Shown piece after piece: positions 30,746 through 50,999 of a stretch of DNA of 64,000 nt; the first letter of the stretch is position 1, and the number at the start of each line of letters is the position of its first letter. This DNA is from Bugulina stolonifera (Eukaryota; Bryozoa; Gymnolaemata; Cheilostomatida; Bugulidae). Under the pieces are notes generated by a model. The model had not been told where the DNA came from. It did not search any database and saw nothing but the letters and a program-made list of their open reading frames with translations. The translations under genes and the position numbers were made by a program. Where the stretch lies: positions 744,001 to 808,000 of the forward strand of contig OW285190.1 in NCBI GenBank assembly GCA_935421135.1, read 5' to 3'.

Positions 30746-31278
30746 GTATAAAGACATGTCGACCTAGCATAAAATCGCCCATCTTTCATAAAATTGATCA
30801 ATAATAAACAATATTAATATATCAACTGTGTTGAACAATAACAATAATCATTATCACAACAAATCAAATACCATTTAAATAAAAATACCATGTGTATTGT
30901 ATATAACAATACTTATCACATTGACATTATATTTATTTATTAATATACATTAATTTATTTTATATCAATGAGTTCATATTCTACTGTGCAGAAGTTCCGT
31001 ATGAATTTTCATAGTGATGAAACAACAAATTAAAATAAAATAATCATTTCTTAACCTTCCAAACTACTATTAATTAGTATTATGGGTTTGTTCTACTAAA
31101 ACTTAAAATAAAAATTAAAGTCAATAGCTCATTGATTGTAAATTACCATAACCACAGCTTTATAGAGTATTATTTTCAGCTGGTTTATCAGTAACACCGT
31201 TTATCACTAATTGATCAAAACTTAAACCCGATCATACACATCAATAAAATCCTAAATAATAATCTGGAGGCTTGATTA
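30746..31278. other. Non-coding, AT-rich
   Basis: No gene. 31,152-31,183 is an inverted match (about 30 bp) to 53,906-53,937 (AAACCAGCTGAAAATAATAC and onward). Confidence 0.4.
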
Positions 31279-31389
31279 TGTCAGATGCCACTCTGGACAT
31301 AAACATTGTGCAAGATATTTGTATACATTAAACAACTACAGCTAAATACACACCCATTATTTGGTGTAATATTGAGTAAACATGTATAT

Positions 31390-31640
31390 AGGCTTGGTTC
31401 TTAACTGTCGTAATAACAGCAACCCCAGCCACAACATCTTTATTACCATTATTAGATGGCAATCTAACACATGGGTATTTATATATATATTATCAGCCAA
31501 TCACAGCACAGCATATCCACTAATTAGCATGACTGATACTATACAATAATAGACTTAATTCTTAACTATCATAATAACAACAACCCCAGCCACAACATTT
31601 TTAATTACCATACTCTATATATACTGTATATATTGATAGA
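31390..31640. repeat. Direct repeats in the outer arm
   Basis: A block containing AACCCCAGCCACAACAT followed by TTATTACCAT or TTAATTACCAT occurs twice, about 31,395-31,465 and 31,555-31,620, with roughly 85% similarity. Both are mirrored in the right arm (about 48,890-48,950 and 49,580-49,645). Confidence 0.7.
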
Positions 31641-31877
31641 AGTTGGAACCCATACACAAACTTATGGATACCAGGATAACTTATTCATATTCAATTACCA
31701 GCAGATAGACATTGAATAATATCAATACTAATCTTCCCTTATGATATGTACTAAGATAGCACAGATACAATAACTAACATGAATATTAATTAGAAGCCAG
31801 ACAAAACATAGTTACCTACAACATCCTTTTATTTTCTATGTATTGTAGGATACATACACAGATAGATATACATGTAT

Positions 31878-32009
31878 TGTTATGAGTTGTGTTCTCCTGT
31901 AATATTATATACTTATGTTTGGAATTATCTACTCTTTATATGTTAATAGAATCGTCCTTATATATGCACGCTATTGATAAAATAAACACTACTTGGTAAC
32001 ACATAAACA
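31878..32009 (+). repeat. 5' LTR of Gypsy element 2
   Basis: 132 bp. Differs from the 3' LTR at a handful of positions (for example CTCCTGTAAT/CTCCCGTAAT and TACTTATG/TACCTCTG). AATAAA lies near its 3' end (31,980). Confidence 0.95.
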
Positions 32010-32201
32010 TGGTGGCAGCGCGGTTTTTAAAGAACCCAACAACAACAAAAAAAATTAATCTGTACTAATTTCTGACTTATACACGTCATCTTACACTAAG
32101 ATTGATACCTAATGTATATTGCTAGTAATAGTAAATAACAGATAGACTTTAATGACACAAACAACAGTGTGTATCAAGTGAAGACCAAGTGAAGGAAAAA
32201 G

Positions 32202-35200
32202 GTGATTATGGCTAAGCTAAAACCTCCACCCAATTTCGACTTTGCTAACCCCAACAGTTTTGGAGACTGGTTAAGGACGTTCCAACTGTATAGAATTGCC
32301 TCAGAATTGAAGGGCAAAGATGGCGAAATTCAGGTAGCAACGTTATTATATACAATGGGAAAAGATGCAGAGACAATAATGGATACTTTTACCTTTGCCG
32401 ATGATGATCAAAAAAAGGACTTCGATGCAGTAAGCAAAAAGTACGTGGAATACTACACACCAAAAAAGAATGTGATTCATCTGAGATCACTCTTCCATTC
32501 AAGAAATCAGTCACCACAAGAGTCGAGCAAAAATTATATACGGGACTTATACAAACTTGCTGAAAACGCCGAGTTCGACAACAAAGATGAACAAATTCGA
32601 GATCGCCTTGTAGTGGGCATCATAGACAAAGAACTATCAAGGAAGTTACAACTAGAACCGAATCTGACATTACAAAGTGCCATTACTATGATTCGACAGA
32701 CTGAACAAGTGAAATCTGACATGAACAAGCAAGATGTGTCATCAGTACAAGCAGATAGTGCGAGAGCTCAACACAGCACACATAACCCCAAGAAATTCCG
32801 AGAAAGGGACACAACGTCAGGTGATACAAAAACTCAATCACAATGCAAGCGTTGTGGAAGAAGACACCCCCCGAGGAGTTGTCCCGCCTACAAGGTAACA
32901 TGTCACAATTGCCATAAGAGTGGACATTTTGCCAAGTTCTGCTTAAGTAAGCAACACAAATCTGACACTAATCCTGGAAACAGACAGAATAACGCCAACA
33001 ACCGTACTAGCAGACACAACTTTGAAGTAAGTCGTCAGAAAGAAAGTGATTATTACTTCTGTGATACTGTACAAACTAATCAGAGATCTCTTGATATCCA
33101 TGACAATCACGAACCGTGGTATGTTACACTAACCACATTCTGTAGCCCGACAAAGTTCAAAATAGACACTGGAGCTGATGTTACGGTAATGTGTGAAGAG
33201 TCATACAATGCTCTTAGTTATAAGCCAAACTTGTGTAAACCTGATATTGCATTAAATAGTGCAAATTCAACCATGCATGTTATAGGGTTTTGCTATCTAG
33301 ATGTAACTTACAAAGACAAATCTTTTGTGTTGAAAGCATACATTGCTAAGTGCCATACAAATTTATTGTCACGATCAGCTGCTATTAGCATGTCACTTTT
33401 ACGGCGAGCTGATGCACTTGGTACAGTGCGAGGTGAAGTAGCGCACATCAAAATGAACGAGAAAATATCACCGGTCGCTGTTAGCGCGCCGCGAAGAGTA
33501 CCTTTTCCACTGTTGTCAAAAGTTAACACGGAGCTAGATAGAATGCTCAAAGACGGTGTTATACGTCCTATCACCGATCCAACTGAGTGGTGTTCTAACA
33601 TCATTCCTGTAGAAAAAGCAAATGGGTCTGTCAGAATATGCGTAGATCTGCGCTCTGTCAATAGAGCAGTTCAAAGGGAATTTTACCCAATACCAAGCTT
33701 TGATGAGCTAGCAACCAAATTAAGCGGTGCAGTTGCATTTTCCACACTAGATGCTAGGTCAGGTTATCACCAAATTCCTCTAAGTTCTGAGTCACAAAAA
33801 CTCACAACATTTATCACACATCGTGGAAGGTTTTGCTTTCAAAGGTTGCCATTTGGCATAACAAGTGCTAGTGAGATATTTCAGTGCATCATGGAGACAC
33901 TTTTGAAGGATGTCCCTGGTGTAGTCATATACCAAGATGACATTGTAGTGTTTGGCAAATCCATCAAAGAACATGATTCCAAGTTGAAAGTTGTTTTGAA
34001 ACTACTAAATGAAGCTGGCCTAGAGTTGAATAAAACTAAATGCATTTACCGTAAGGAGACAATTAAATTTCTAGGTCACATGTTTAGCAAGGAAGGCGTA
34101 GCAGTAGACCCAGACAAAATAAAGACAATAGAGGCCTTAGGTAAACCGACTGACATAACTAGCCTGCGTAGACTACTGGGTGCAGTAAATTACTTACAAA
34201 AGTTTATACCCAATCTGTCAACCCTCACCTCCCCGTTAAATGACCTTCTGAGAAAAGATACCGAGTGGTTTTGGGGACACGCGCAAAAAGCGGCAATGAG
34301 TGAGATAATAAACAGGCTAAAGCATGCTAAAACACTCAAGTACTATAGCCCAGCTGAAGATGTAGTTATTTCAGCAGATGCTTCAATGACTGGTCTAGGT
34401 GCTGTACTTACACAAGGTAACCAATGTGTCACATTTGCCTCTAGAACATTGACTGACACAGAGAGAAATTACTCAAACATAGAATGTGAGTTCCTAGCTC
34501 TGGTATGGGGTTGCGAAAAGTATGACCAGTATATTAGGGGACTACCTAGGTTTACTTTACAGACTGACCATAAACCCCTAATCCCCACGATCAATGGTAG
34601 TGACCTAAATAAAGCTCCACTAAGGTGCCAAAGACTGCTGATGCGATTGATGAGGTACAACCCACATGCTATGTACGTCCCTGGCAAAAACATGTATCTA
34701 CCTGATGCATTATCACGGAGTCCAAGCGGTATTCCCACTCAAGCAGATATTCTATTTGCTGCTGAAGTAGAGAGCTTTGCTAAATCTATTACTGACAATC
34801 TACCTATATCAGACACCAGACTTACGCAAATTAGAAATGAGTCACAAGATGACAGCGTACTTTGTAGAGCAATAAAATATACCATAAATGGTTGGCCAAG
34901 GCAAGTCAAAGATGTGGAGAGCGACCTACAGAGTTTATTCTCTGTGAGAGCACTCCTCTCTGTAGCTAATGGCATACTCTTATATAGTACCAGAATCGTA
35001 ATACCTCGCTCACTTAGGACTGAGATACTTTCCTCGCTACATGAAGGCCATTGGGGTATCCACAAGTCCAGAGGCCGAGCTAATCAGTTGGTATGGTGGC
35101 CCAGAATGTCACAAGACATTGTGCAGTATTCACAGCAATGTGTTCACTGCAATGAACATGCCAACGCTAACAGGCGTGAGCCCATGGTGATCAGTGAACC

Positions 35201-35516
35201 ACCACCCACCAAATGGTATCGCATATCAATGGATTTATTCTATTTTGAGTCCAAGAATTATATGGTCGTCCAGGACCAACATAGCAAATACCTGGAAATA
35301 GTTCAGCTGAGCAATACTGAATCTCATATGGTCATTCAAAAACTAATGACTATATTTTCAAGATGGGGATTCCCTGTAGAGATTGTGTCAGATAATGGTC
35401 CACAATACTCAAGTGATGAATTCAGAAAATTTATCAACATGTACAACATGACCCACATTACGAGTAGCCCATTGTACCCCAATCCAACGGGTCAGCGGAA
35501 AAAGCAGTACAAATAG
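32202..35516 (+). CDS. gag-pol: Gypsy 2 Gag-Pol polyprotein
   Basis: An open frame of 1,104 codons. Gag has the WLRTFQLYRIAS start block and two zinc knuckles: CKRCGRRHPPRSC (residues about 217-229) and CHNCHKSGHFAKFC. The protease active site is FKIDTGADVTVM (about residue 325). RT has VRICVDLRSVN, LPFGITSASEIFQ and catalytic YQDD in VIYQDDIVVFG. RNase H has ISADASMTGLGAVL and TDHKPL. Integrase has the HHCC finger (HWGIHKSRGRANQLVWWPR, CVHCNEH) and the first two acids (ISMDLFYFE, SDNGPQYS). The frame shifts just before the catalytic Glu near 35,486. The start ATG could be codon 1 or 3. A single gag-pol frame is normal in this Mag-like group. The polyprotein would form particles, copy RNA and integrate. 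Confidence 0.93.
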   Translation: MIMAKLKPPPNFDFANPNSFGDWLRTFQLYRIASELKGKDGEIQVATLLYTMGKDAETIMDTFTFADDDQKKDFDAVSKKYVEYYTPKKNVIHLRSLFHSRNQSPQESSKNYIRDLYKLAENAEFDNKDEQIRDRLVVGIIDKELSRKLQLEPNLTLQSAITMIRQTEQVKSDMNKQDVSSVQADSARAQHSTHNPKKFRERDTTSGDTKTQSQCKRCGRRHPPRSCPAYKVTCHNCHKSGHFAKFCLSKQHKSDTNPGNRQNNANNRTSRHNFEVSRQKESDYYFCDTVQTNQRSLDIHDNHEPWYVTLTTFCSPTKFKIDTGADVTVMCEESYNALSYKPNLCKPDIALNSANSTMHVIGFCYLDVTYKDKSFVLKAYIAKCHTNLLSRSAAISMSLLRRADALGTVRGEVAHIKMNEKISPVAVSAPRRVPFPLLSKVNTELDRMLKDGVIRPITDPTEWCSNIIPVEKANGSVRICVDLRSVNRAVQREFYPIPSFDELATKLSGAVAFSTLDARSGYHQIPLSSESQKLTTFITHRGRFCFQRLPFGITSASEIFQCIMETLLKDVPGVVIYQDDIVVFGKSIKEHDSKLKVVLKLLNEAGLELNKTKCIYRKETIKFLGHMFSKEGVAVDPDKIKTIEALGKPTDITSLRRLLGAVNYLQKFIPNLSTLTSPLNDLLRKDTEWFWGHAQKAAMSEIINRLKHAKTLKYYSPAEDVVISADASMTGLGAVLTQGNQCVTFASRTLTDTERNYSNIECEFLALVWGCEKYDQYIRGLPRFTLQTDHKPLIPTINGSDLNKAPLRCQRLLMRLMRYNPHAMYVPGKNMYLPDALSRSPSGIPTQADILFAAEVESFAKSITDNLPISDTRLTQIRNESQDDSVLCRAIKYTINGWPRQVKDVESDLQSLFSVRALLSVANGILLYSTRIVIPRSLRTEILSSLHEGHWGIHKSRGRANQLVWWPRMSQDIVQYSQQCVHCNEHANANRREPMVISEPPPTKWYRISMDLFYFESKNYMVVQDQHSKYLEIVQLSNTESHMVIQKLMTIFSRWGFPVEIVSDNGPQYSSDEFRKFINMYNMTHITSSPLYPNPTGQRKKQYK

Positions 35517-36085
35517 CAAAGAAGGTACTGACATCAGAAAATCCCAACTTAGCACTTTTAGCATACAGATCTGCCAAAACCAACACGGGATACTCTCCTA
35601 ATGAGATCATGTTAGGGCGACAAGTTTGCACCACTGTGCCTTGCCGTGAGTCCGCTTTAGGCGACATAGACCTAGATGACAAAATTATCCAGCAAGCAAA
35701 CAGCGAATCAAAACAAGTTGCTAAACATTATTATGATAAGGTTGCTTTGAAACAGCCACTAAGTGAATTAACACCTGGCTCCCCAGTTAGAATCCGTAGA
35801 GACGGGAATTGGTCACCTGAGAAATATGTAGTACTCGGTAAAGCCAATACACCACGCTCTTATGTAGTAAATGATCCGGATTCTGGTGGGAAATTTAGAA
35901 GGAACAGAAGGCAGCTTTTACCTGCTGTTCTGACACCCTCATTAGATCAAAGTGAACCAGATCAACCATCCCCAGATGGGTCGGTGACAGAGCACGCATT
36001 GCAAAATGACAGCAGCGGGAAATATGCGCGTCCTAAGCGTGTAATTAAATTGCCTGCGAGATTTGGTGATTACGAAATGAAATAG
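35486..36085 (+). pseudogene. pol: Gypsy 2 integrase C-terminus after a frameshift
   Basis: Starting near 35,486 the other frame continues the integrase with NGSAEKAVQ (catalytic Glu), LAYRSAKTNTGYSPNEIMLG and a C-terminal GSPVRIRRDGNWSPEKY block, ending at 36,085. One missing base between CCAATCC and AACGGG explains the shift. Everything else looks functional. 270 bp of 3' UTR precede the polypurine tract. Confidence 0.85.
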
Positions 36086-36354
36086 TAGTCTTGATAGGCG
36101 CTAACAATTCTCGTGCTGTACCAAGAGCGAATTTCATTTTCTCAAGACAATGCTAATCTCACTGATCAAAGTTCTAAATATTATATTAGTCATATTAACT
36201 AATTATCCACATTATATCAGTTATATCACATAGTGTAATTCGTCTGTAATATTTCCTTATATGTAGTAGCAATTCCTTTTATTGTGTTATAACTTCAGTT
36301 TCTAATTATGCCAACAAGTTTTCTAACATGCTTATATTTGACTTAGAAGGGAGA

Positions 36355-36487
36355 TGTTATGAGTTGTGTTCTCCCGTAATATTATATACCTCTGTTTGGA
36401 ATTATCTACTCTTTATATGTTAATAGAATCGTCCTTATATATGCACGCTATTGATAAAATAAACACTACTTGGTAACACATCAAACA
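36355..36487 (+). repeat. 3' LTR of Gypsy element 2
   Basis: 133 bp, ending ATCAAACA, followed by the target copy TGTAT. Confidence 0.95.
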
Positions 36488-36492
36488 TGTAT

Positions 36493-38001
36493 ATGCAGTG
36501 ATCATGTATGAGGGTATGAGAGTGAATTTTACCCAACGATACTTTTATAAATAGCCTAAACAACAAATACATTATACCAGTTGGAACCCAGGCCTAGCAC
36601 ACTTATATGCCTGCACCTTCATATATATACACATTATTATAGACTACATACACAGACATAAGTATCTATATTATATACATAGGGTATGAAGTCGAATATC
36701 TGTACGACAACTGTGTTTTATAAAACACAGCGAAGGCAGACGCATCAGTTAGGTTGGATAATATATTGAACACAAATGATTGTACCATTTCCTAGTTTTT
36801 TTGTTATATGATGGATTACATTGAGACGTGTGCATTTGTGTATACCTGTCGGTAGGCTTATGTGTTTGATGGACAGGGTGTGTCAGTGGATGGGTGTAAA
36901 GATAATGCTGCGGCTAAAAGGGAATACTAATGTTAAAGAAAAGTTGACCATGGGTTGACATTTACACAGACAATATATTATATTGATAGTAGGTAATCAC
37001 ATAAATTAGAAGAAAGACTCGTCCACTACGCAATAAAAGTTTGGAAAAGAGAAAGTCCTAAAGATTACCATTGCTGACATAAACAAACAAACAACACATG
37101 AAAATGATTACAACACATTACATCACTAAGGATTAAGTATACTGGGATAGATGGCCATTGGTTAACATAAACCAATCAACAAGACAGGAATAGTATACAT
37201 CCTCCCATAAGATAAATTGTTGCTGACATGGAATTCCAAGAGAGGAGGATATAAGGAGACGCATCCCAAGACTTAGATCAGAGAGGGGAAGAGGAGCAGC
37301 CCAGGAGGACAGAAGAACCTACAACATGGAACAATAAGGATCTCTACTCTGCTATAAGTAAGTCAGAATATTATATTATTTTTTCCTGAATATTGGAAGG
37401 ACTCCTCTCTCACACACACACAGATGGAGATACTGTAAGTTATTATACTCTTTTATTTTTTTTACTATTGGAATTTTTTTTATTGAGGATAATTATATCC
37501 CTGCTCTCTGAAAGGACTATTTTTGCGATTTGAAATATTGTTGAATTTGTGGGTAGAACCCAATCAGACAGATTATTATTGAATGATAATTATACTAGTC
37601 CCAATAATTGGTTGACACTGTTCCTGGTTTTTGATCGCACATATTGGATTCATAATTTTATATTTTTGCGGAACTGATTGCAGTTGATTGATTGATAAAT
37701 ATATCAGTATTGTCAGACATAACATTGACACACAGAATTGATTGATTGGTTGATAAACCCTTACCTGAATTATTGTACAGTACCAGAGATTGTCTGTACG
37801 GACCTTGATTGTCCTATTGTATGTCCTGATTTGTCAGTAGACTTGTTATAAATTTTCACAGGGGAGATAGTCTCAATTTGTCACTCGGGTTTCATTTCTA
37901 AAATAGAGAGTGATTGATATTATATGTCCACGAGAGGAATCATAATTGAATGCATATTGTCCTGAGTGCTACCATTACCATATTTGAACCACACACACAT
38001 A
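36493..38001. repeat. Left arm, outer segment (mirrors about 47,080-48,615)
   Basis: Reverse-complementary to the right arm with small indels. Landmarks: TAAAACACAGCGAAGGC, TAAGCCTACCGACAGGTAT (on the complement) and GACTCGTCCACTACGC. No long reading frame. A TATA/donor module is listed separately. Confidence 0.8.
37245..37363 (+). promoter_or_regulatory. Inward-facing TATA, short exon and splice donor, left arm
   Basis: GATATAAGG (37,249-37,257) is followed by a purine-rich stretch and, 100 bp on, by CTGCTATAA and GTAAGTCAG (donor at 37,358). The layout is that of a core promoter with a first non-coding exon pointing to the palindrome centre. A diverged mirror copy (GGAGTATATAAGG read on the minus strand) lies near 47,835 with its donor near 47,724. 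Confidence 0.35.
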
Positions 38002-38821
38002 CACAGAACCATTATTCATTGCCATTGGGCAAATATTGAATTGAGTACAGGAGGTTATAGAATTTCAGATTATTGAATCGAAATTATTCATAGGGAGAAG
38101 TTATTCCCTCTATCGCGATTATCAGAATTGGCAGATATTCAATTGAATAGATTACATGAGCATAGAAGTTATCTTCTCTATATAGAGTTGAACAGGAGAA
38201 GACAACAAATTACACAGTCATTTACTTATTTACAGTTTACAAATCAATTTACACATCCAAAAATAACTCAGTCATTTATATTACATTCATTTGTATTACA
38301 TTCAATTCACATACTACTTAATTATAATTGATTTGATTATAATTATTTATACATCATTACTATACATCATCATTATATTACATAATTATTTAAAATTTCC
38401 TCGTGACATTATGTCACGAGGGAATTTTCAAATATAATTAATAAAAATGTGTATATGTATAGTAATGATGTAATTAATTATAATTATAATCAATCAATTA
38501 TAATTACGTAGTATGTGAATTGAGTGTGTATAAAAAAAAAATGAATGAGTTATTTTTGGATGTATAAATTGATTTGTGTACAATTCGTAAATGAGTAAAT
38601 GACAGTGTAATTTGTAGTTGTCTTCTCCTGTTCAACTCTATGTAGAGAAGATAACTTCTATGCTCATGTAATCTATTCAATTGAATATCTGCCAATTCTG
38701 TTAATCGCGATAGAAGGGATAACTTCTCCCTATGAATAATTTTGATCCAATAATCTCAAATTCTATAACCTCCTGTACTCAATTCAATATTCGCCCAATG
38801 GCAATGAATAATGGTTCTGTG
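38002..38821. mobile_element. 820-bp foldback inserted in the left arm only
   Basis: CACAGAACCATTATTC at 38,002 pairs with GAATAATGGTTCTGTG ending 38,821. The arms meet at CCTCGTGACATTATGTCACG near 38,411. The right arm lacks it: there the sequence runs directly from CACATACACAGAA to GTAGTATAGTC (complement, near 47,065). Hence it is a later insertion or a local inverted duplication. No coding content beyond mirrored short frames. Confidence 0.8.
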
Positions 38822-39539
38822 AGTAGTATAGTCAGTGCAGATCTACACAGACACCCGGCCCTTTCCGCGTCGTATTAGCCCTAGATCCAAAAACTCCCCG
38901 GGCGGACGACCACCCCACCCGTCCTCTCGCCCCTCCTCTCCCCTAAACCTCACTCTATGTGCAAAGCCCTAGAACCTACTCCCCCCCATCGCGGGTGGGG
39001 TTTCAAAAACCTCATCGGCTGTTCCGTAGAACCCAGTCTAAAGAGCAAACCCCTCGCCCGGTCCCACGGCTCGGGCGAGGGGGCGCGCGCGTACGCGCGC
39101 GCCCCCCCCGCCCCGCGAACCCCACCCGTCCTCCCTCCACCCGTCCCCGCCCCTCCCCACCCCTCCCCACCCCAAACCCCTCCGCCTCGCCCTCCGCCTC
39201 GCGGCGGTTCTCGTTCGCGAGTCCAGCCGTGGCCCCACGCCGCCCTCCCCCCGCCCATCCCCCGCCCCTCCCCCGCTCTCCCGCCCCAACGACCCGTCGC
39301 GGCCCTCGCGGGCGGACCGTCGGCTGGAGTAGGGTGAAGCGAAGGAAAATACGGGTTAGAGTAATGATATCCGGCTATGAAAAACGTGAGCGAGGGTAAT
39401 GGTACACGAATTTGTTTTAAATTTCAATACGTTTGAGAGTAATAGTACGGTGAAGCGAAGAAAAATACGGGTTGGAGTAATGATAGGGTACGCCCGTGCG
39501 GAGTGCCCGTGCAGAGTTTACGACGCTGACTATACTACT
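38822..39539. repeat. GC-rich block bounded by 14-bp inverted repeats, left arm
   Basis: AGTAGTATAGTCAG (38,822-38,835) and CTGACTATACTACT (39,526-39,539) bound about 720 bp of very GC-rich DNA in an otherwise AT-rich arm. It contains a GCGCGCGCGTACGCGCGCGC palindrome near 39,085 and a 37-bp direct repeat (about 39,333 and 39,449, starting GGTGAAGCGAAG). Long open frames here are due to lack of A/T-rich stops. No family is recognised. Confidence 0.75.
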
Positions 39540-39552
39540 ATAAGAAACTTAC

Positions 39553-39911
39553 CGAGTGGTGGTGGTGGTGCTTCCGGATGATTTCTTCGCCGGGGACTGT
39601 TGAGACTGAACTGGTCGGGGTGACACCGCACTCGCGCGCTCCTCCGTTCGAGCGCCCCCGGACCTCCGATGAAAGACTCGCGCCTTAACCCTCGTTTCCC
39701 CCGGACCCTCCCCTAGGGAAATCGCCCGTCCCCGTGACGAGCGGCGAGGGAAAGTGAAGGCGGTGGCTCTTTCGCGCTTCAAACCGTAGACCTCGCGAGG
39801 TGGTTCGCCGGCGACATCCTCGCTCGGAGGGGTAGAAATAGATAAATGGAATAAATGGATGGCTGTCTTCTCATCATCATCATCATCATCATCATCAACA
39901 TCATCATCATC
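39553..39911 (-). CDS. Acidic/basic protein exon, left arm (outward)
   Basis: Mirror of 45,979-46,337. On the minus strand, acceptor TATTTGTAG, an Asp-codon run, about 120 codons and donor GTAAGT. Frame and splice sites are kept in both arms, so whatever maintained the arms (gene conversion or recent duplication) kept the exon. See the right-arm entry for the composition. Confidence 0.45.
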
Positions 39912-40426
39912 CTACAAATAGACCCGCCTCCACGATGATGTCGTTGACTCCCCACCAATTTCTTCGACCACCGCGTCCACTTTCCCCCGGGTAGCAAACT
40001 CCGATAGGGAGAGAGCGCATCGTGCGCGTGCGATGTCACCCCCCACCTACGAATGAAGACGATAGAAGAAATGTGAACTGATAAGGGGTGAGTATGAGTG
40101 GAAGTTGCACTAGTACCGTCTACCCCTTTGGTTTGGCGAGGTAAATGGTTTTTAATGTATTAGCTAGTGTTTTATTGCTCGGTTTTAAGGTTACAACCGG
40201 TAAACCCTCCGTTTTGAGGACGGAGACCCCTTACAATAGAGAGTGAATGTGAAGAAAAATATACGGGTATATGTACAAGGGTTATGTTGCACTGTTCGTT
40301 TACTCTCCAATTTATCGAATGAAGTAGTCTCATCTCCGAGAAATCAGTACTAGCATTCTATAGGACTCGTACTCACCCCGTCTTCTGCAACCTTCCGCTT
40401 ACCATAGAGGTAGGTGAGTCCGGTCT

Positions 40427-40574
40427 TTAGCTGGGTGTAGCTATACGTTTGGTTTCCTCTTCTGATAAATTTTTATCTTTTCGGATGAGCGCATCTATAC
40501 TACGAGCACTCAGGGCCATGTAAGCGCTATCCGTGTCCATTTCTACGTACTCAAACTCCTCTCTGCTGACGAAT
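40427..40574 (-). CDS. Family-B DNA polymerase motif-C exon, left arm (outward)
   Basis: Exact-register mirror of 45,316-45,463, read on the minus strand: acceptor TTTTATTTTCACAG, then a frame with EFEYVEMDTDSAYMAL, ending TAA. Same interpretation and uncertainty as the right-arm copy. Confidence 0.55.
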
Positions 40575-40679
40575 CTGTGAAAATAAAATGGACGGGTTGG
40601 AGGGTGCTGACACCGAAGAATAAATAGAGAAGGATTTGATAAAATCTTTGTGTAGTCTAGTTCTACTCATCTATCCATA

Positions 40680-42390
40680 TGTGTACACATGTTAAAATAC
40701 CTTTATATAATAGTTCAAACACAATTGAATGAATAAAAGACACATATCTAAAGGAGTATGTCATAGCTATTATTAGCAAGAAAAGACTGTGTGCATGTGT
40801 TAAGTCAGCATACATAATACATTAAATAAGCTTTTCACAATAGTAGCGATAGAATAAATAAAAGGTTGTATGCATGTGTTAAGTCAGCATTATGTAATTC
40901 ATTAAATAAACTTTTCACAATAGTAGCAATAGAATATATAAAAGGTTGTATGCATGTGTTAAGTCAGCATTATGTAATACATTAAATAAACTTTTTACAA
41001 TACTAGCAATAGAATGAATAAATGTGTACACATGGTAAAATACCATTATATAATAATTTAAACACAATTGAATGAATAAAACGCACATATATGTAAAGGA
41101 GTATGGCATACCTATTATTAGCAAGAAAAGGCTGTGTGCATGTGTTAAGTCAGCATATATAATACATTAAATAAACTTTTCACAAAGTCAGCATAATATA
41201 TAATACATTAAATAAACTTTTCACAATAGTAGCAATAGAATAAATAAAAGGTTGTGTGCATGTGTTAAGTCAGCATTATGTAATTCATTAAATAAACTTT
41301 TCACAATAGTAGCAATAGAATAAATAAAAGATTGTGTACACATGTTAAAATACCATTATATAATAATTTAAACACAATTGAATGAATAAAAGGCACATAT
41401 GTAAAGGAGTATGACATACCTATTATTAGCAAGAAAAGGCTGTGTGCATGTGTTAAGTCAGCATATATAATACATTAAATAAACTTTTCACAAAGTCAGC
41501 ATAAGATATAATACATTAAATAAACTTTTCACAATAGTAGCAATAGAATAAATAAAGGGTTGTGTGCATGTGTTAAGTCAGCATTATGTAATTCATTAAA
41601 TAAACTTTTCACAATAGTAGCTATAGAATAAATAAAAGAGTGTGTACACATGTTAAAATACCTTTATATAATAATTTAAACACAATTGAAAGAATAGGCT
41701 GTGTGCATGTGTTAAGTCAGCATATATAATGGATTAAATAAGCTTTTCACATAAAATACCTTTATATAATAATTTAAACACAGTTGAAAGAATAGGCTGT
41801 GTGCATGTGTTAAGTCAGCATATATAATAGATTAAATAAGCTTTTCACATACCTATTATTAGCAAGAAAAGGCAGTGTGCATGTGTTAAGTCAGCATATA
41901 TAATAGATTAAATAAGCTTTTCACAATAGTAGCAATAGAATAAATAAAAGGTTGTGTGCATGTGTTAAGTCAGCATTATGTAATTCATTAAATAAACTTT
42001 TCACAATAGTAGCAATAGAATAAATAAAAGATTGTGTACACATGTTGAAATACCTTTATATAATAGATTAAATAAGCTTTTCACATACCTATTATTAGCA
42101 AGAAAAGGCTGTGTGCATGTGTTAAGTCAGCATATATAATAGATTAAATAAGCTTTTCACAATAGTAGCAATAGAATAAATAAAAGGTTGTGTGCATGTG
42201 TTAAGTCAGCATTATGTAATTCATTAAATAAACTTTTCACAATAGTAGCAATAGAATAAATAAAAGATTGTGTACACATGTTAAAATACCTTTATATAAT
42301 AATTTAAACACAATTGAAAGAATAGGCTGTGTGCATGTGTTAAGTCAGCATATATAATAGATTAAATAAGCTTTTCAATAGTAGGTAGGT
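40680..42390. repeat. Composite tandem array, left arm
   Basis: Repeats of roughly 80 bp sharing GCATGTGTTAAGTCAGCA, ATTAAATAAACTTTTCAC and AATAGTAGCAATAGAATAAA, alternating with a second module (ACACAATTGAATGAATAAA, CCTATTATTAGCAAGAAAAG). Unit order is irregular, as expected from unequal exchange. Mirrored at about 43,660-45,215. Confidence 0.85.
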
Positions 42391-42689
42391 GTCACTGTTT
42401 TAGTCTCCCTATAATAAATATAAAGTAGCAGGGTGTAAGTAATTTTTTAGCTTGATAGCATTATATACAATAAACACTTCACAATTGCTGCCAATTACCC
42501 TATTTAGCACTAACCTTATGTTCTACTTGTTGAAATCTCTGATCAGGTGCTGACTAGTAGGTAGCTGTCTCTGTTTTAGTCTCACTCTGTTGACTAGAGG
42601 CTGATTGTACATACTGCTAGAGTGAGAAACTCATACCTTAAATAGTAGTATTCAGTAGGCGGAGTCTAACCATTTCCCCACCCTTTGCA

Positions 42690-43035
42690 ATACCACCCCG
42701 ATGCGTCCCGATGTGAATCCGAAGCCTCCCGATGCACCCCGATGCGAATCCGAAGCCTCCCGATGCACCCCGATGCGAATCCGAAGCCTCCCGATGCACC
42801 CCGATGTGAATCCGAAGCATCCCGATGCACCCCGATGCGAATCCGAAGCCTCCCGATGCACCCCGATGTGAATCCGAAGCCTCCCGATGCACCCCGATGT
42901 GAATCCGAAGCCTCCCGATGCGAATCCGAAGCCTCCCGATGCACCCCGATGTGAATCCGAAGCTTCCCGATGCACCCCGATGCGAATCCGAAGCCTCCCG
43001 ATGCATCCCGATGCACCCCGATGTGCCCCGATGTG
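42690..43035. repeat. 31-bp minisatellite, left half
   Basis: About ten 31-bp units built from CCCGATGYGAATCCGAAGCC and CCCGATGCAC. Because 31 is not a multiple of three, each frame cycles through three peptides. The open frames on both strands are repeat artefacts. Confidence 0.9.
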
Positions 43036-43050
43036 TCAAATCACATCGGG
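43027..43050. other. Palindrome centre
   Basis: CCCGATGTG, spacer TCAAAT (43,036-43,041), CACATCGGG. The minisatellite changes strand here. A 6-nt loop is short enough for efficient hairpin or cruciform formation. Confidence 0.9.
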
Positions 43051-43360
43051 GTGCATCGGGTTACATCGGGATGCATCGGGAAGCTTCGGATTCACATCGG
43101 GAGGCTTCGGATTCGCATCGGGGTGCATCGGGAGGCTTCGGATTCACATCGGGGTGCATCGGGATGCTTCGGATTCACATCGGGGTGCATCGGGAGGCTT
43201 CGGATTCGCATCGGGGTGCATCGGGAGGCTTCGGATTCACATCGGGGTGCATCGGGAGGCTTCGGATTCGCATCGGGGTGCATCGGGAGGCTTCGGATTC
43301 GCATCGGGGTGCATCGGGAGGCTTCGGATTCACATCGGGACGCATCGGGGTGGTATTGCA
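43042..43360. repeat. 31-bp minisatellite, right half (inverted)
   Basis: Reverse complement of the left half (GGCTTCGGATTCRCATCGGG units), with one or two units' difference in order and number. Confidence 0.9.
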
Positions 43361-43659
43361 AAGGGTGGGGAAATGGTTAGACTCCGCCTACTGAATACTA
43401 CTATTTAAGGTATGAGTTTCTCACTCTAGCAGTATGTACAATCAGCCTCTAGTCAACAGAGTGAGACTAAAACAGAGACAGCTACCTACTAGTCAGCACC
43501 TGATCAGAGATTTCAACAAGTAGAACATAAGGTTAGTGCTAAATAGGGTAATTGGCAGCAATTGTGAAGTGTTTATTGTATATAATGCTATCAAGCTAAA
43601 AAATTACTTACACCCTGCTACTTTATATTTATTATAGGGAGACTAAAACAGTGACACCT

Positions 43660-45215
43660 ACCTACTATTGAAAAGCTTATTTAATCTATTATATATGCTG
43701 ACTTAACACATGCACACAGCCTATTCTTTCAATTGTGTTTAAATTATTATATAAAGGTATTTTAACATGTGTACACAATCTTTTATTTATTCTATTGCTA
43801 CTATTGTGAAAAGTTTATTTAATCTATTATATATGCTGACTTAACACATGCACACAGCCTTTTCTTGCTAATAATAGGTATGTGAAAAGCTTATTTAATC
43901 TATTATATAAAGGTATTTCAACATGTGTACACAATCTTTTATTTATTCTATTGCTACTATTGTGAAAAGTTTATTTAATGAATTACATAATGCTGACTTA
44001 ACACATGCACACAACCTTTTATTTATTCAATTGCTACTATTGTGAAAAGCTTATTTAATCTATTATATATGCTGACTTAACACATGCACACAGCCTATTC
44101 TTTCAACTGTGTTTAAATTATTATATAAAGGTATTTTATGTGAAAAGCTTATTTAATCTATTATATATGCTGACTTAACACATGCACACAGCCTATTCTT
44201 TCAATTGTGTTTAAATTATTATATAAAGGTATTTTAACATGTGTACACACTCTTTTATTTATTCTATAGCTACTATTGTGAAAAGTTTATTTAATGAATT
44301 ACATAATGCTGACTTAACACATGCACACAACCCTTTATTTATTCTATTGCTACTATTGTGAAAAGTTTATTTAATGTATTATATCTTATGCTGACTTTGT
44401 GAAAAGTTTATTTAATGTATTATATATGCTGACTTAACACATGCACACAGCCTTTTCTTGCTAATAATAGGTATGTCATACTCCTTTACATATGTGCCTT
44501 TTATTCATTCAATTGTGTTTAAATTATTATATAATGGTATTTTAACATGTGTACACAATCTTTTATTTATTCTATTGCTACTATTGTGAAAAGTTTATTT
44601 AATGAATTACATAATGCTGACTTAACACATGCACACAACCTTTTATTTATTCTATTGCTACTATTGTGAAAAGTTTATTTAATGTATTATATATTATGCT
44701 GACTTTGTGAAAAGTTTATTTAATGTATTATATATGCTGACTTAACACATGCACACAGCCTTTTCTTGCTAATAATAGGTATGCCATACTCCTTTACATA
44801 TATGTGCGTTTTATTCATTCAATTGTGTTTAAATTATTATATAATGGTATTTTACCATGTGTACACATTTATTCATTCTATTGCTAGTATTGTAAAAAGT
44901 TTATTTAATGTATTACATAATGCTGACTTAACACATGCATACAACCTTTTATATATTCTATTGCTACTATTGTGAAAAGTTTATTTAATGAATTACATAA
45001 TGCTGACTTAACACATGCATACAACCTTTTATTTATTCTATCGCTACTATTGTGAAAAGCTTATTTAATGTATTATGTATGCTGACTTAACACATGCACA
45101 CAGTCTTTTCTTGCTAATAATAGCTATGACATACTCCTTTAGATATGTGTCTTTTATTCATTCAATTGTGTTTGAACTATTATATAAAGGTATTTTAACA
45201 TGTGTACACATATGG
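43660..45215. repeat. Composite tandem array, right arm
   Basis: Inverse of the left-arm array. It has the same two modules on the other strand and minor unit-number differences. Confidence 0.85.
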
Positions 45216-45315
45216 ATAGATGAGTAGAACTAGACTACACAAAGATTTTATCAAATCCTTCTCTATTTATTCTTCGGTGTCAGCACCCTCCAACCCGTCC
45301 ATTTTATTTTCACAG

Positions 45316-45463
45316 ATTCGTCAGCAGAGAGGAGTTTGAGTACGTAGAAATGGACACGGATAGCGCTTACATGGCCCTGAGTGCTCGTAGTATAGATGCG
45401 CTCATCCGAAAAGATAAAAATTTATCAGAAGAGGAAACCAAACGTATAGCTACACCCAGCTAA
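45316..45463 (+). CDS. Family-B DNA polymerase motif-C exon, right arm (outward)
   Basis: After acceptor TTTTATTTTCACAG (ending 45,315) a frame reads FVSREEFEYVEMDTDSAYMA and continues 27 codons to TAA. The DTDS core preceded by hydrophobic/acidic residues and followed by Y and M is motif C of family-B DNA polymerases, where the two aspartates bind the catalytic metals. The VEMDTDSAYMAL style is like polymerases of protein-primed elements and plasmid-like entities rather than nuclear replicative ones (inference). It is only about 48 residues, whereas a polymerase needs several hundred; motifs A and B and the exonuclease are not seen. So this is a fragment or one exon of a decayed gene, duplicated by the palindrome. 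Confidence 0.6.
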
Positions 45464-45843
45464 AGACCGGACTCACCTACCTCTATGGTAAGCGGAAGGT
45501 TGCAGAAGACGGGGTGAGTACGAGTCCTATAGAATGCTAGTACTGATTTCTCGGAGATGAGACTACTTCATTCGATAAATTGGAGAGTAAACGAACAGTG
45601 CAACATAACCCTTGTACATATACCCGTATATTTTTCTTCACATTCACTCTCTATTGTAAGGGGTCTCCGTCCTCAAAACGGAGGGTTTACCGGTTGTAAC
45701 CTTAAAACCGAGCAATAAAACACTAGCTAATACATTAAAAACCATTTACCTCGCCAAACCAAAGGGGTAGACGGTACTAGTGCAACTTCCACTCATACTC
45801 ACCCCTTATCAGTTCACATTTCTTCTATCGTCTTCATTCGTAG

Positions 45844-45978
45844 GTGGGGGGTGACATCGCACGCGCACGATGCGCTCTCTCCCTATCGGAGTTTGCTACC
45901 CGGGGGAAAGTGGACGCGGTGGTCGAAGAAATTGGTGGGGAGTCAACGGCATCATCGTGGAGGCGGGTCTATTTGTAG
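45844..45978 (+). CDS. Possible small exon with conserved frame
   Basis: After acceptor TTCATTCGTAG (ending 45,843) a 44-codon frame runs to TAG, including LSLSEFATRGKVDAVVEEIG. The left-arm counterpart differs by at least one amino acid (Ala to Thr in the ESTASS stretch) without breaking the frame. It overlaps the acceptor of the next exon, so the two would be alternatives. Not recognised. Confidence 0.25.
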   Translation: MGGDIARARCALSLSEFATRGKVDAVVEEIGGESTASSWRRVYL

Positions 45979-46337
45979 GATGATGATGATGTTGATGATG
46001 ATGATGATGATGATGATGAGAAGACAGCCATCCATTTATTCCATTTATCTATTTCTACCCCTCCGAGCGAGGATGTCGCCGGCGAACCACCTCGCGAGGT
46101 CTACGGTTTGAAGCGCGAAAGAGCCACCGCCTTCACTTTCCCTCGCCGCTCGTCACGGGGACGGGCGATTTCCCTAGGGGAGGGTCCGGGGGAAACGAGG
46201 GTTAAGGCGCGAGTCTTTCATCGGAGGTCCGGGGGCGCTCGAACGGAGGAGCGCACGAGTGCGGTGTCACCCCGACCAGTTCAGTCTCAACAGTCCCCGG
46301 CGAAGAAATCATCCGGAAGCACCACCACCACCACTCG
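45979..46337 (+). CDS. Acidic/basic protein exon, right arm (outward)
   Basis: Acceptor TATTTGTAG ends at 45,978 and donor GTAAGT begins at 46,338, giving 359 nt (about 120 codons, phase 2 exit). The frame begins with four Asp, Val and eight Asp from a GAT repeat, then Glu-Lys and a mixed segment (STPPSEDVAGEPPREVYGLK). A Ser/Arg/Gly-rich basic stretch follows (FPRRSSRGRAISLGEGPGE), then SPAKKSSGSTTTTTR. Low-complexity, charge-segregated composition suggests a disordered nuclear or nucleic-acid-binding protein. It lies 0.5 kb downstream of the polymerase-like exon on the same strand and could belong to the same transcript. Family unknown. Conservation of frame and splice sites in both arms is the main support. 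Confidence 0.5.
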
Positions 46338-46350
46338 GTAAGTTTCTTAT

Positions 46351-47068
46351 AGTAGTATAGTCAGCGTCGTAAACTCTGCACGGGCACTCCGCACGGGCGT
46401 ACCCTATCATTACTCCAACCCGTATTTTTCTTCGCTTCACCGTACTATTACTCTCAAACGTATTGAAATTTAAAACAAATTCGTGTACCATTACCCTCGC
46501 TCACGTTTTTCATAGCCGGATATCATTACTCTAACCCGTATTTTCCTTCGCTTCACCCTACTCCAGCCGACGGTCCGCCCGCGAGGGCCGCGACGGGTCG
46601 TTGGGGCGGGAGAGCGGGGGAGGGGCGGGGGATGGGCGGGGGGGAGGGCGGCGTGGGGCCACGGCTGGACTCGCGAACGAGAACCGCCGCGAGGCGGAGG
46701 GCGAGGCGGAGGGGTTTGGGGTGGGGAGGGGTGGGGAGGGGCGGGGACGGGTGGAGGGAGGACGGGTGGGGTTCGCGGGGCGGGGGGGCGCGCGCGTACG
46801 CGCGCGCCCCCTCGCCCGAGCCGTGGGACCGGGCGAGGGGTTTGCTCTTTAGACTGGGTTCTACGGAACAGCCGATGAGGTTTTTGAAACCCCACCCGCG
46901 ATGGGGGGGAGTAGGTTCTAGGGCTTTGCACATAGAGTGAGGTTTAGGGGAGAGGAGGGGCGAGAGGACGGGTGGGGTGGTCGTCCACCCGGGGAGTTTT
47001 TGGATCTAGGGCTAATACGACGCGGAAAGGGCCGGGTGTCTGTGTAGATCTGCACTGACTATACTACT
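46351..47068. repeat. GC-rich block bounded by 14-bp inverted repeats, right arm
   Basis: Mirror of 38,822-39,539, with small homopolymer differences in G runs. AGTAGTATAGTCAG and CTGACTATACTACT bound it. It starts 13 bp after the splice donor of the acidic exon, so it would lie in the following intron. Confidence 0.75.
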
Positions 47069-49017
47069 TCTGTGTATGTGTGTGTGGTTCAATTATGGTA
47101 ATGGTAGCACTCAGGACAATATGCACTCAATTATGATTCCTCTCGTGGACATATAATAATAATCACTCTCTATTTTAGAAATGAAACCCGAGTGACAAAT
47201 TGGGACTATCTCCCCTGTGGAAATTTATAACAAGTCTACTGACAAATCAGGACATACATACAATAGGACAATCAAGGTCCGTACAGACAATCTCTGGTAC
47301 TATACAATAATTCAGGTAAGGGTTTATCAACCAATCAATCAATTCTGTGTGTCAATGTTATGTCTGACAATACTGATATATATTTATCAATCAATCAAAT
47401 GCAATCAGTTCCGCAAAATATAAAATTATGAATCCAATATGTGCGATCAAAAACCAGGAACAGTGTCAACCAATTATTGGGACTAGTATAATTATCATTC
47501 AATAATAATCTGTCTGATTGGGTTCTTCCCAAAATTCAACAATATTTCAAATCGCAAAAATAGTCCTTTCAGGGAGCAGGGATATAATTATCCTCAATAA
47601 AAAAATTCCAATAGTAAAAAAATAAAAGAGTATAATAACTTACAGTATCTCTGTCTGTGTGTGTGTGAGAGAGGGTCCACTTCCAATATTCAGAAAAAAA
47701 TAATATAATATTCTGACTTACTTATAGCAGAGTAGATAGATCCTTATTGTTCCATGTTGTAGGTTCCTCTGTCCTCCTGAGATGCTCCTCTCCCCCTCTC
47801 TCTCTCTCTGATTCAGCCTTGAGATGTGCCTCCTTATATACTCCTCCGGTGATCTTATGTAATGATTGCATGCTGTAACTGATGCTATTTCTGTCTTATT
47901 TTTGCTATTTCTGTCTTGTTTGTTTGTATATGTCAGCAGCGGTCATCTATCCCAGTATATAGAATCATAGGTGTTGTAATATGTTGTAATCTGTGAGTCA
48001 TTGTCATGTGTTGTTTGTTTGTTTGTTTGTTTATGTCAGCAATGGTCATCTTTAGGACTTTCTCTTTTCCAAACTTTTATTGCGTAGTGGACGAGTCTTT
48101 CTTCTAATTCATGTGATTACCTACAATCAATATATTCTCTGTGTAAATGTCAACCCATGGTCAACTTTTCTTTAACATTAGTATTCCCTTTTAGCCGCAG
48201 CATTATCTTTACACCCATCCACTGACACACCCTGTCCATCAAACACATAAGCCTACCGACAGGTATACACAAATGCACACGTCTCAATGTAATCCATCAT
48301 ATAACAAAAAAACTAGGAAATGGTACAATCATTTGTGTTCAATATATTATCCAACCTAACTGATGCGTCTGCCTTCGCTGTGTTTTATAAAACACAGTTG
48401 TCGTACAGATATTCGACTTCATACCCTATGTATATGGTATAGATACCTATGTCTGTGTGTGTAGTCTATAATAATGCGTATATATATGAAGGTGCAGGCA
48501 TATAAGTGTGCTAGGCCTGGGTTCCAACTGGTATAATGTATTTGTTGTTTAGGCTATTTATAAAAGTATCGTTGGGTAAAATTCACTCTCATACCCTCAT
48601 ACATGATCACTGCATATACATGTATATCTATCTGTGTATGTATCCTACAATACATAGAAAATAAAAGGATGTTGTAGGTAACTATGTTTTGTCTGGCTTC
48701 TAATTAATATTCATGTTAGTTATTGTATCTGTGCTATCTTAGTACATATCATAAGGGAAGATTAGTATTGATATTATTCAATGTCTATCTGCTGGTAATT
48801 GAATATGAATAAGTTATCCTGGTATCCATAAGTTTGTGTATGGGTTCCAACTTCTATCAATATATACAGTATATATAGAGTATGGTAATTAAAAATGTTG
48901 TGGCTGGGGTTGTTGTTATTATGATAGTTAAGAATTAAGTCTATTATTGTATAGTATCAGTCATGCTAATTAGTGGATATGCTGTGCTGTGATTGGCTGA
49001 TAATATATATATAAATA
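47069..49017. repeat. Right arm, outer segment
   Basis: Reverse complement of 36,493-38,001 plus the outer left arm before the Gypsy insertion. It carries the uninterrupted Gypsy 2 target (TGCATATACATGTATATC, about 48,611-48,628). No gene. Confidence 0.8.
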
Positions 49018-49024
49018 CCCATGT

Positions 49025-49558
49025 CAAAGTTTCTATATACCAAGTTTATCCAGTAAACGATGCGTATACTCGTTTGCCATAGTTCTCTCGCCAAAATGGG
49101 CAAACCGTTGCTCTTTAACGAGCGCCCAGCCTGTGGTAAAACGCTTAGGCTATAGAAATATAGGTCGACAATAGTAGTTGACAGTCTGGACAAAGAGCGT
49201 ACTTTTACCATCTTTGATCGACATGAGACATAAATAGTCCAGACCACGTGATCAGTAGGATGGCTCGAACTTTTTGGGCCTTTTTCCTATATTTATGCTC
49301 TTCTAAATGCTTGCATCTTCTATTGATGCTATCGGTATAAACATCATTGTATTCTGAAAATAATGGGCTAGCATTACAGGTACTTTTAGCCAATCTCAGG
49401 GGAATTTTTTCGCCAATCTTGAGAAGACCCCATTGTGTCATTGGTAGTTTTTCGTTGCCACTCAACTACTTTGAACTAGGCCGCTTATTAGGTCAGATTT
49501 CGCGCGATCCTATTGGTGCATAAAGCCGTGGAACAACTTATTAGTTCTATAAACTTTG
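49025..49558. mobile_element. 534-bp TIR element (CAAAGTTT family), copy 2
   Basis: CAAAGTTTCTATATA to TATAAACTTTG, flanked by CCCATGT (49,018-49,024 and 49,559-49,565). The left arm keeps the single empty site ACACATGGGTATTTATA (near 31,470). Very similar to 22,767-23,299. Confidence 0.92.
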
Positions 49559-50999
49559 CCCATGTGTTAGATTGCCATCTAATAATGGTAATAAAAATGT
49601 TGTGGCTGGGGTTGCTGTTATTACGACAGTCAAGAACCAAGCCTATATACATGTTTACTCAATATTACACCAAATAATGGGTGTGTATTTAGCTGTAGTT
49701 GTTTAATGTATACAAATATATTGCACAATGTTTATGTCCAGAGTGGCATCTGACAATTAGAACAATTTTTGAAAGATTTTTCAGGTGAAGATGGCTAAAA
49801 TTCCGCAAAAAATTTGCGGTAGAGAATAAATAATTTTCCACACATGATTTCAACTTTAATTCGACTTAAATTTCGCTAAATTAAGATTTTTTCGATATCT
49901 AACTTCGAAGTTCATAATTGCAGATGATATATTATATATTTGCTACTGCATTTTTCATTCAAAAAAGGGTGTAACTAAAACACCGTCTACGCCGTCTACA
50001 CCGTCTCCAGAAAAACGCCGTCTGCTTCCGGTTTAAAGAAATAATATTTTAGTAACGAGAAATCTTTGGAGTTGTCTTTTCTTCGACTTAAATTTTAAAA
50101 GAAGACAACTTCAACTTGCTTTCTCCAACAATAAATTGTGATGGCGATTAAAATGCCAGTTTATCTGCTGTTTTACTGCTAGCATATTGCAATGTTTTAT
50201 AATTGTATAATTATGCATAATGCTGCATTATATTGTACATTATACATTACAAGGCTTTACACAGGCTATAACTCTTTTTGAACCAATTAATGATCACAAT
50301 CATGTGAAGTTTGCTTCTCTTCTTGCTAGAAACAAGTTGGAGAAGGCAACTTCACACTAGGAAGTAGATTATTAATAGCCTGACTGATAAGATTGTCTAT
50401 AATATTAATTTTTTGGTGCTAATTATGATTTCCGATTGCAGGATTTGTTGTACAAAGCAAGTCTGTTTCAAGAAGGTGTGAAGCCTAACAGGGTTGCATG
50501 AGATTGATGACAACTTATAAAATAAATTGGTACTCAAATTATAACTCTACAAGTAGGTAAGGCGAAACCTTGAGTTGTACTTTGTGCTGCCTACAGCTGT
50601 GGTCATAGTATTTTGTACATACCTAGAGACATGTGCACAGGCATTTGTTGCAGAACAACATAATATTGCTACAATATGTACTTTTGCCGCATTACCACTA
50701 TACCATAAATATACAGTAAAATTATTCCTTCCGAAAGTACAAAGGAGGCAAAGCTTCATTTAATTTGGACAGACCTGTGCTGAGTAGGTGCGACTCCTAC
50801 GGAGCCCAAACTCTATGTTAGCATCAGCACCGAATGTCCCCATTTTCCTATATCCAGCAGTTTGTTACCAGTTACCAGCTACTATCCAGTTTGTTACCCA
50901 AGGTTAGAGCTGAACCAAATATAGTTGATTCAAACATTAAATTTGCAACAAAGATATATCGACATAAATGTACATTACAGATAAACATGCCACCATAAT

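Follow-up and report, generated by a model that had tools for sequence, protein, structure and literature searches.

The 64,000-nucleotide window analysed here (Bugulina stolonifera, contig OW285190.1, positions 744,001 to 808,000) contains an 18-kb structure that has the outward appearance of one giant palindrome. It is a nest of mobile elements around an 8-kb mirror-image core, and this core is Maverick-derived, i.e. a known kind of element in a new form. We consider it probable that the core is a palindromic derivative of a 9.65-kb Maverick-type element of the same genome, likely created by fold-back at a minisatellite of this parent and likely mobilised in trans. The core family is real, apparently young, dispersed and palindromic, and at this locus it is nested in an ordinary pair of Gypsy long terminal repeats (LTRs). 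A preliminary description had taken the whole structure for a single element made up almost entirely of terminal inverted repeats (TIRs); instead, there are two layers, the Gypsy LTR pair and the independent inner palindrome. The alternative named in that description, namely that a protein-primed replicon folded back during replication, turned out to be the best-supported reading of the core.

The palindromic core, its parent and its copies

The core is 8,247 bp long, is bounded by AGTAGTATAG and CTATACTACT and has AGTAGT//ACTACT termini. It is inserted in the minus-strand LTR, and the flanking TCTGTG is its own 6-bp target-site duplication: the sister LTR on the plus strand provides the empty site, a single uninterrupted CACAGA at the place where the core sits in the minus LTR. 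A contrast with Polintons that had been drawn earlier (6-bp duplications as opposed to 4-bp ones) thus fails for the core. When the first 1,858 bp of the core were compared with their mirror image, 1,852 positions matched, with 3 mismatches and 3 gap positions. The 6-nt spacer reported for the centre was confirmed (TCAAAT, 43036-43041, in the context GATGTG-TCAAAT-CACATC). The core contains no complete parental gene, and PolB is present as a 3' fragment only.

Two copies of the parent (L037 and L039) were read. They are non-palindromic elements of ~9.65 kb with ~550-bp TIRs, AGTAGT//ACTACT ends and 6-bp duplications. In both, leftward open reading frames (ORFs) and a rightward PolB gene are separated by an inverted 31-bp minisatellite, which forms a palindrome of several hundred bp. 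The PolB of L039 matched the Pfam family DNA_pol_B_2 with 27.3 bits (cut-off 25.8), and the PolB piece of L037 scored 19.6 bits, below this cut-off. Named close relatives of the polymerase come from amphioxus, corals, anemones, a sea cucumber, a sea star and bivalves. Inside PolB there is a Vsr-like stretch (Pfam E 0.0016-0.004, below the cut-off of that family; PHROG endonuclease E 1.1e-4), an insertion of this sort being a mark of group I Mavericks (PMC10328495, in part). Judged by sequence, the parental PolB would be that of a group-I-like Maverick, of the protein-primed kind by family. A model of its N-terminal part (mean predicted local distance difference test score, pLDDT, 79) gave weak matches to polymerase exonuclease parts and viral OTU domains, the best with E 0.0088 and none with E<=0.001.

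A 241-aa product of the parent is predicted to be a tandem-OB single-strand-DNA-binding protein (SSB). Its AlphaFold2 (AF2) model has a mean pLDDT of 74.7, and all 17 Foldseek matches with E<=0.001 were RPA, POT1-containing or Teb1 structures, with low TM-scores; VIA-align likewise gave low Z values (best 5.5). A PHROGs search of the 241-aa and 163-aa ORFs gave no match. In Pfam scans of six ORFs of L037 and nine of L039 there was no retroviral-like DDE integrase, and no ATPase, capsid or protease either, with no dedicated capsid model being used. Little coding room remains in the two copies beyond the scanned ORFs.

The core corresponds to one side of this parent. Its positions 1-1858 correspond to the PolB-side end of L039 minus a deletion of ~0.3 kb; the PolB body (L039 2130-5995) is missing and is replaced by an 80-bp tandem array. 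The PolB leader, of which 292 of 314 bases match L037 and 298 of 315 match L039, flanks the minisatellite arrays of the core on both outer sides. The sequence at the centre of the minisatellite is the same, bar one base, in the two palindromes read (the core and L038) and the two parents. No match to 1,500 bp from the other gene half of the parent was found in either palindrome. The mirrored leader, the shared centre and the correspondence of the ends together indicate that the core consists of the parent's PolB half and its mirror image, joined at the parental hairpin. The 80-bp array had no match in L037 or L039. On contig C6, however, another element (L009, 3108 onward) has an end of the AGTAGTATAGTCAGTG type and contains a related array of the 80-bp type, with 66-75% identity to the one in the palindrome, so that a chimeric origin is possible.

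As had been proposed, further loci with the same ends were looked for in the genome (234,951,659 bases, 27 contigs), and the end of the core as well as the LTR end recur. The 21-bp core end had 657 exact matches (327 forward, 330 reverse; control 0). For the 1,858-bp stretch of the core, 40 of 708 candidates were scored and proved 97-100% identical. From 100 listed matches out of 353 to a longer end sequence, 96 were paired by hand to give 48 elements: 32 of 9.2-9.9 kb (median 9,671), 13 of 7.2-8.5 kb and three others. The PolB marker had 265 matches at <=2 mismatches. Where the PolB piece meets the 80-bp array there is a junction specific to the palindrome, which was found 81 times at <=2 mismatches (control pattern 0). 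Of these matches, 72 are accounted for by 36 inverted pairs, spread over 11 contigs and including this locus, and nine are unpaired; the spacing is 2.8-5 kb in 34 of the 36 pairs. Among the matches listed, the junction was present in 11 of the 13 short elements versus none of the 32 long ones. Perfect 6-bp duplications flank all four elements read (core TCTGTG, L037 GATCTT, L038 ATCGTT, L039 TCCATA), and all four have AGTAGTATAG/CTATACTACT ends. Since the copies share this junction and are nearly identical, they appear to go back to a single founder that was already palindromic when it spread.

Shorter forms with these ends exist as well. At 17 loci, two TIR tips are joined at a self-complementary GCAGATCTGC to give 40-bp palindromes (e.g. 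C1:14505550-14505589 and C8:2899210-2899249), five of them perfect, seven with one mismatch and five with two; they may have arisen by fold-back on a very small scale or from whole elements deleted from end to end. A marker from the SSB side is commoner than the PolB marker, with 417 matches at <=1 mismatch, which hints that the SSB side is retained in short derivatives, such as a 2.8-kb end pair at C1:19723371-19726161. By eye, no SSB-side palindromes were seen among 100 listed of the 417 matches.

Proposed origin and mobilisation

We infer the founding event, the replication and the integration of the core from these comparisons. A protein-primed strand would start at the PolB end of the parent and reach the inverted minisatellite, where it would change templates to the inverted array and be extended back to the end from which it had started. 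The product would be a molecule with two functional PolB-side ends, and since the founder the 80-bp array would have taken the position of a lost PolB body. Protein priming is the replication mode expected for Mavericks, and the repeated AGT at their ends fits the jumping-back step that this mode would involve (PMC8097293, in part). Most likely, the palindrome would then replicate with the polymerase and the predicted SSB of the parent, and a larger Maverick with the same terminal 9-10 bp would supply the integrase for its insertion.

Alternatively, the inverted arrays of a single chromosomal copy, or of two such copies, could have recombined or undergone break repair to form the founder, which would then have been mobilised as a unit. 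We regard this route as unlikely, although it is the strongest of the alternatives: the inverted minisatellite of the parent is a substrate for either route, the palindrome keeps the slightly asymmetric centre of the parent, and the sequence itself gives nothing against recombination. A chromosomal product would, however, still need to be mobilised to reach dozens of sites.

A candidate source of the integrase is present in the genome. A profile search for the ATPase PF04665 gave ten matches, five of them with equal score. This profile also found matches in 2 of 14 control genomes, so that the ATPase alone was not considered sufficient; the region around one match (L040, C1:12829300-12839299) was called a Maverick because an rve integrase (E 2.3e-9) and its own PolB adjoin the A32 ATPase. 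In the part of this PolB that was read there was no match to Vsr. At least 13 kb of one copy of the larger Maverick were read. Comparison of two copies places one terminus at AGTAGTATAG in one of them and at AGTAGTATAA in the other. Over 3.4 kb these copies share 99.6% identity, which suggests a young family. The terminal 9-10 bp are common to the larger Maverick and the 9.65-kb element, and there was no blastn match to the TIR of the latter beyond them. Because these terminal bases are shared, a borrowed integrase is the simplest reading, and the parent is probably moved by the integrase of the larger Maverick, since no integrase gene was found in the two copies of it that were read.

The 9.65-kb element might instead be self-sufficient, with the Vsr-like nuclease inside PolB cutting and joining the ends. 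The Vsr-like stretch, the absence of an integrase from the scanned ORFs of two copies and a copy number in the hundreds speak for this, but group I Mavericks have the Vsr insertion as well (PMC10328495, in part), vertebrate Mavericks carry an integrase gene (PMC8097293, in part), and the terminal 9-10 bp equal those of an integrase-carrying Maverick in the same genome. We therefore rate self-sufficiency slightly below the recombination route, at about one chance in five.

A bolder reading is that of a chain of parasites in three tiers within this genome, for which we see the case as evenly balanced. Integrase-carrying Mavericks would form the first tier, the 9.65-kb satellite, with its own polymerase and SSB but a borrowed integrase, the second, and palindromes that borrow everything the third. 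These palindromes would consist of nothing but ends, arrays and a palindromic minisatellite resembling an origin, and would be the chromosomal counterpart of defective-interfering genomes, with the fold-back being generated by the built-in inverted minisatellites.

To our knowledge, direct evidence for protein-primed replication of Mavericks in animals is scarce. If our reading is true, a palindromic family tied to a specific parent and a hairpin is a sequence-level trace of this process, chromosomal sequence offers a readable record of how animal transposons replicate by protein priming, and the many near-identical copies are material for testing it. Present in hundreds of copies, a polymerase element in which no integrase has so far been found would separate the replication half of the Maverick cycle from the integration half, and would suggest that Mavericks have their own satellites.

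The outer LTR layer and the locus as a whole

The outer ends were found as described before, with TGTCAG at 31279, CTGACA at 49755 and ATTA on either side. Large inverted arms do exist, but they are not two TIRs of 6.2 kb: the left arm measures ~11.7 kb and the right arm ~6.7 kb. The left arm is thus ~5 kb longer, because it houses a 4.6-kb Gypsy element; the right arm is interrupted by a 534-bp insertion (Table 1).

The first 301 bp of the outer structure had 47 matches across the genome. In ten further insertions that were fetched, the repeat unit is ~2.5-2.6 kb long and reads TGTCAG...CCTCGTGACA. Matching 4-bp repeats flank nine of these ten (ATAC, AAAG, CTAA, TAAA, GTTG, CATG, AAAC, TTAC and CTTC), with L011 being the exception. 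On contig C7 (14862702 to ~14880235), two direct copies of the unit bracket a long open frame that was read as two pieces and has domains for gag, aspartic protease, reverse transcriptase (RT), RNase H and integrase. The unit is a Gypsy LTR because its direct copies enclose this gag-pol frame. The family to which the outer arms belong agrees with Ty3/Gypsy in its TG...CA LTRs, in the 4-bp duplications (4-6 bp in this class) and in the gag-pol with RT, RNase H and integrase between LTRs. The C7 element itself (L013, L014) spans 17.5 kb. Its ~2.5-kb LTRs are nearly identical, and its very long frame includes, between gag and protease rather than 3' of pol, a stretch resembling a membrane protein (very weak match to Pfam Glycoprotein_B, E 0.079, far below cut-off).

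At our locus, the 5' ends of two such LTRs form the ATTA-flanked outer borders and their 3' ends meet at TTA. This arrangement, together with 99.5% identity over the outer ~600 bp, would fit a single snap-back cDNA that integrated once with an ATTA duplication. We nevertheless consider such an origin improbable and disfavour it, as over the next ~1.5 kb the two LTRs are only 93.7% identical, and there the minus LTR is closer (96.0-97.4%) to six of the seven other LTR rows compared. Two LTR variants with a partly homogenised outer stretch appear to fit better, and the shared ATTA may be a re-used target or due to chance.

Long palindromes are a known class of assembly and read artefact. For the core, however, an assembly or fold-back-read artefact is very unlikely and was rejected, because the junction recurs as inverted pairs at separate loci on 11 contigs; moreover, both palindromes read have target-site duplications (TCTGTG, ATCGTT), and their array lengths differ. 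The idea of a Ginger-type transposon reduced to a single giant pair of TIRs, which was based on the TGT ends and the 4-bp flanking repeat, is practically ruled out by the LTR copies, since the TGTCAG end is the 5' end of an LTR running to GTGACA, 4-bp duplications flank 9 of 10 other insertions, which are LTRs, and the two-LTR copy encodes gag-pol. The copies thus do not have the TGTNR inverted termini of a DDE-transposase element that mark Gingers.

Table 1. Features of the locus, in positions of the window
Feature	Position	Strand
ATTA, left flank of outer structure	31275..31278	
Gypsy LTR, TGTCAG...CCTCGTGACA, interrupted by smaller Gypsy element	31279..38408	+
Smaller Gypsy element nested in plus LTR, ~130-bp terminal direct repeats	31878..36484	+
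ORF of smaller Gypsy element (RT, RNase H and integrase domains)	32202..35516	+
TTA between the 3' ends of the two LTRs (GTGACA-TTA-TGTCAC)	38409..38411	
Second Gypsy LTR, 3'-end part	38412..38821	-
TCTGTG, left 6-bp target-site duplication of core	38816..38821	
Palindromic Maverick-derived core, 8,247 bp	38822..47068	
Parental ~548-bp TIR, left copy (AGTAGTATAGTCAGTG...)	38822..39369	+
PolB 3' exon piece (DTDSAYMALS) with intron edge, left arm	40470..40679	-
80-bp tandem array, left arm (no match in L037 or L039)	40680..42384	
Parental PolB leader, putative promoter-side segment, left arm	42385..42696	-
Inverted 31-bp minisatellite arrays including the palindrome centre	42697..43349	
PolB leader segment, right arm (boundary approximate)	43350..43668	+
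80-bp tandem array, right arm (boundary approximate)	43669..45210	
PolB 3' exon piece, right arm	45211..45420	+
Parental ~548-bp TIR, right copy	46521..47068	-
TCTGTG, right 6-bp target-site duplication of core	47069..47074	
Second Gypsy LTR, remainder up to CTGACA, interrupted by 534-bp insertion	47069..49755	-
MITE-like insertion, 534 bp, ends CAAAGTTT...AAACTTTG, 7-bp repeat CCCATGT	49025..49558	
ATTA, right flank of outer structure	49756..49759	

Elsewhere in the window, a degenerate 9-bp repeat of the ATGCATTCT type forms two arrays with higher-order periods (421-2470 and 3959-6084).

Comparison with known systems

The outer arms share with Ty3/Gypsy elements the TG...CA LTRs, the 4-bp duplications and the gag, protease, RT, RNase H and integrase domains. 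The locus differs in having two solo LTRs tail to tail that carry nested insertions, and the two-LTR copy differs in the membrane-protein-like stretch described above.

Miniature inverted-repeat transposable elements (MITEs) and other non-autonomous DNA transposons have parental ends and no complete gene and are moved in trans. The core resembles MITEs in its ends, its lack of a complete gene and its probable mobilisation in trans, but it is 8 kb long, palindromic and derived from an element that carries a polymerase. Foldback/Galileo elements are defined by ends and a transposase of the P superfamily and by a 7-bp duplication; the core has a 6-bp duplication and Maverick ends instead. They share with it long, internally repetitive inverted arms (PMC3573991), but Galileo is classed with the P elements, whereas the core has a PolB-carrying parent.

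Mavericks are the closest match. Core and parent have the 6-bp duplication, the terminal motif and the TIRs of this class, and the parent has the family B polymerase, of which the core holds the 3' fragment. In group I Mavericks, the ends are (AGT)2//(ACT)2, the duplications measure 6 bp and the TIRs a few hundred bp (PMC8097293; Kapitonov and Jurka 2006 as cited in PMC10328495; both in part); like that of the parent, their PolB belongs to the protein-primed type and contains a Vsr-like insertion (PMC10328495, in part). In vertebrates, (AGT)2//(ACT)2 with 6-bp duplications is the commonest Maverick signature, (AG)3//(CT)3 also occurs as a terminal motif, and intact elements measure 12.7-24.6 kb (PMC8097293, in part). 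The parent differs in its length of ~9.65 kb and in that integrase, ATPase and capsid genes were not found in the two copies read; the family differs in its 657 exact end matches and in having a near-perfect palindrome as a derivative. Among the literature matches listed, titles and the beginnings of abstracts describe no palindromic or polymerase-only Maverick of 9-10 kb. Degraded Mavericks are known, e.g. from the Hessian fly, with copies that have only a polymerase or only an integrase domain, but those fragments measure 0.6-4.5 kb (PMC8504770, in part), whereas copies of the 9.65-kb form are uniformly long and have two TIRs as well as duplications.

The snapback defective genomes of adeno-associated virus (AAV) resemble the core in being self-complementary, in having one parental end on both sides and in depending on parental replication functions (PMC8235507, in part). 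AAV is a parvovirus with another mode of replication, while the core is fixed and dispersed in the chromosomes of its host.

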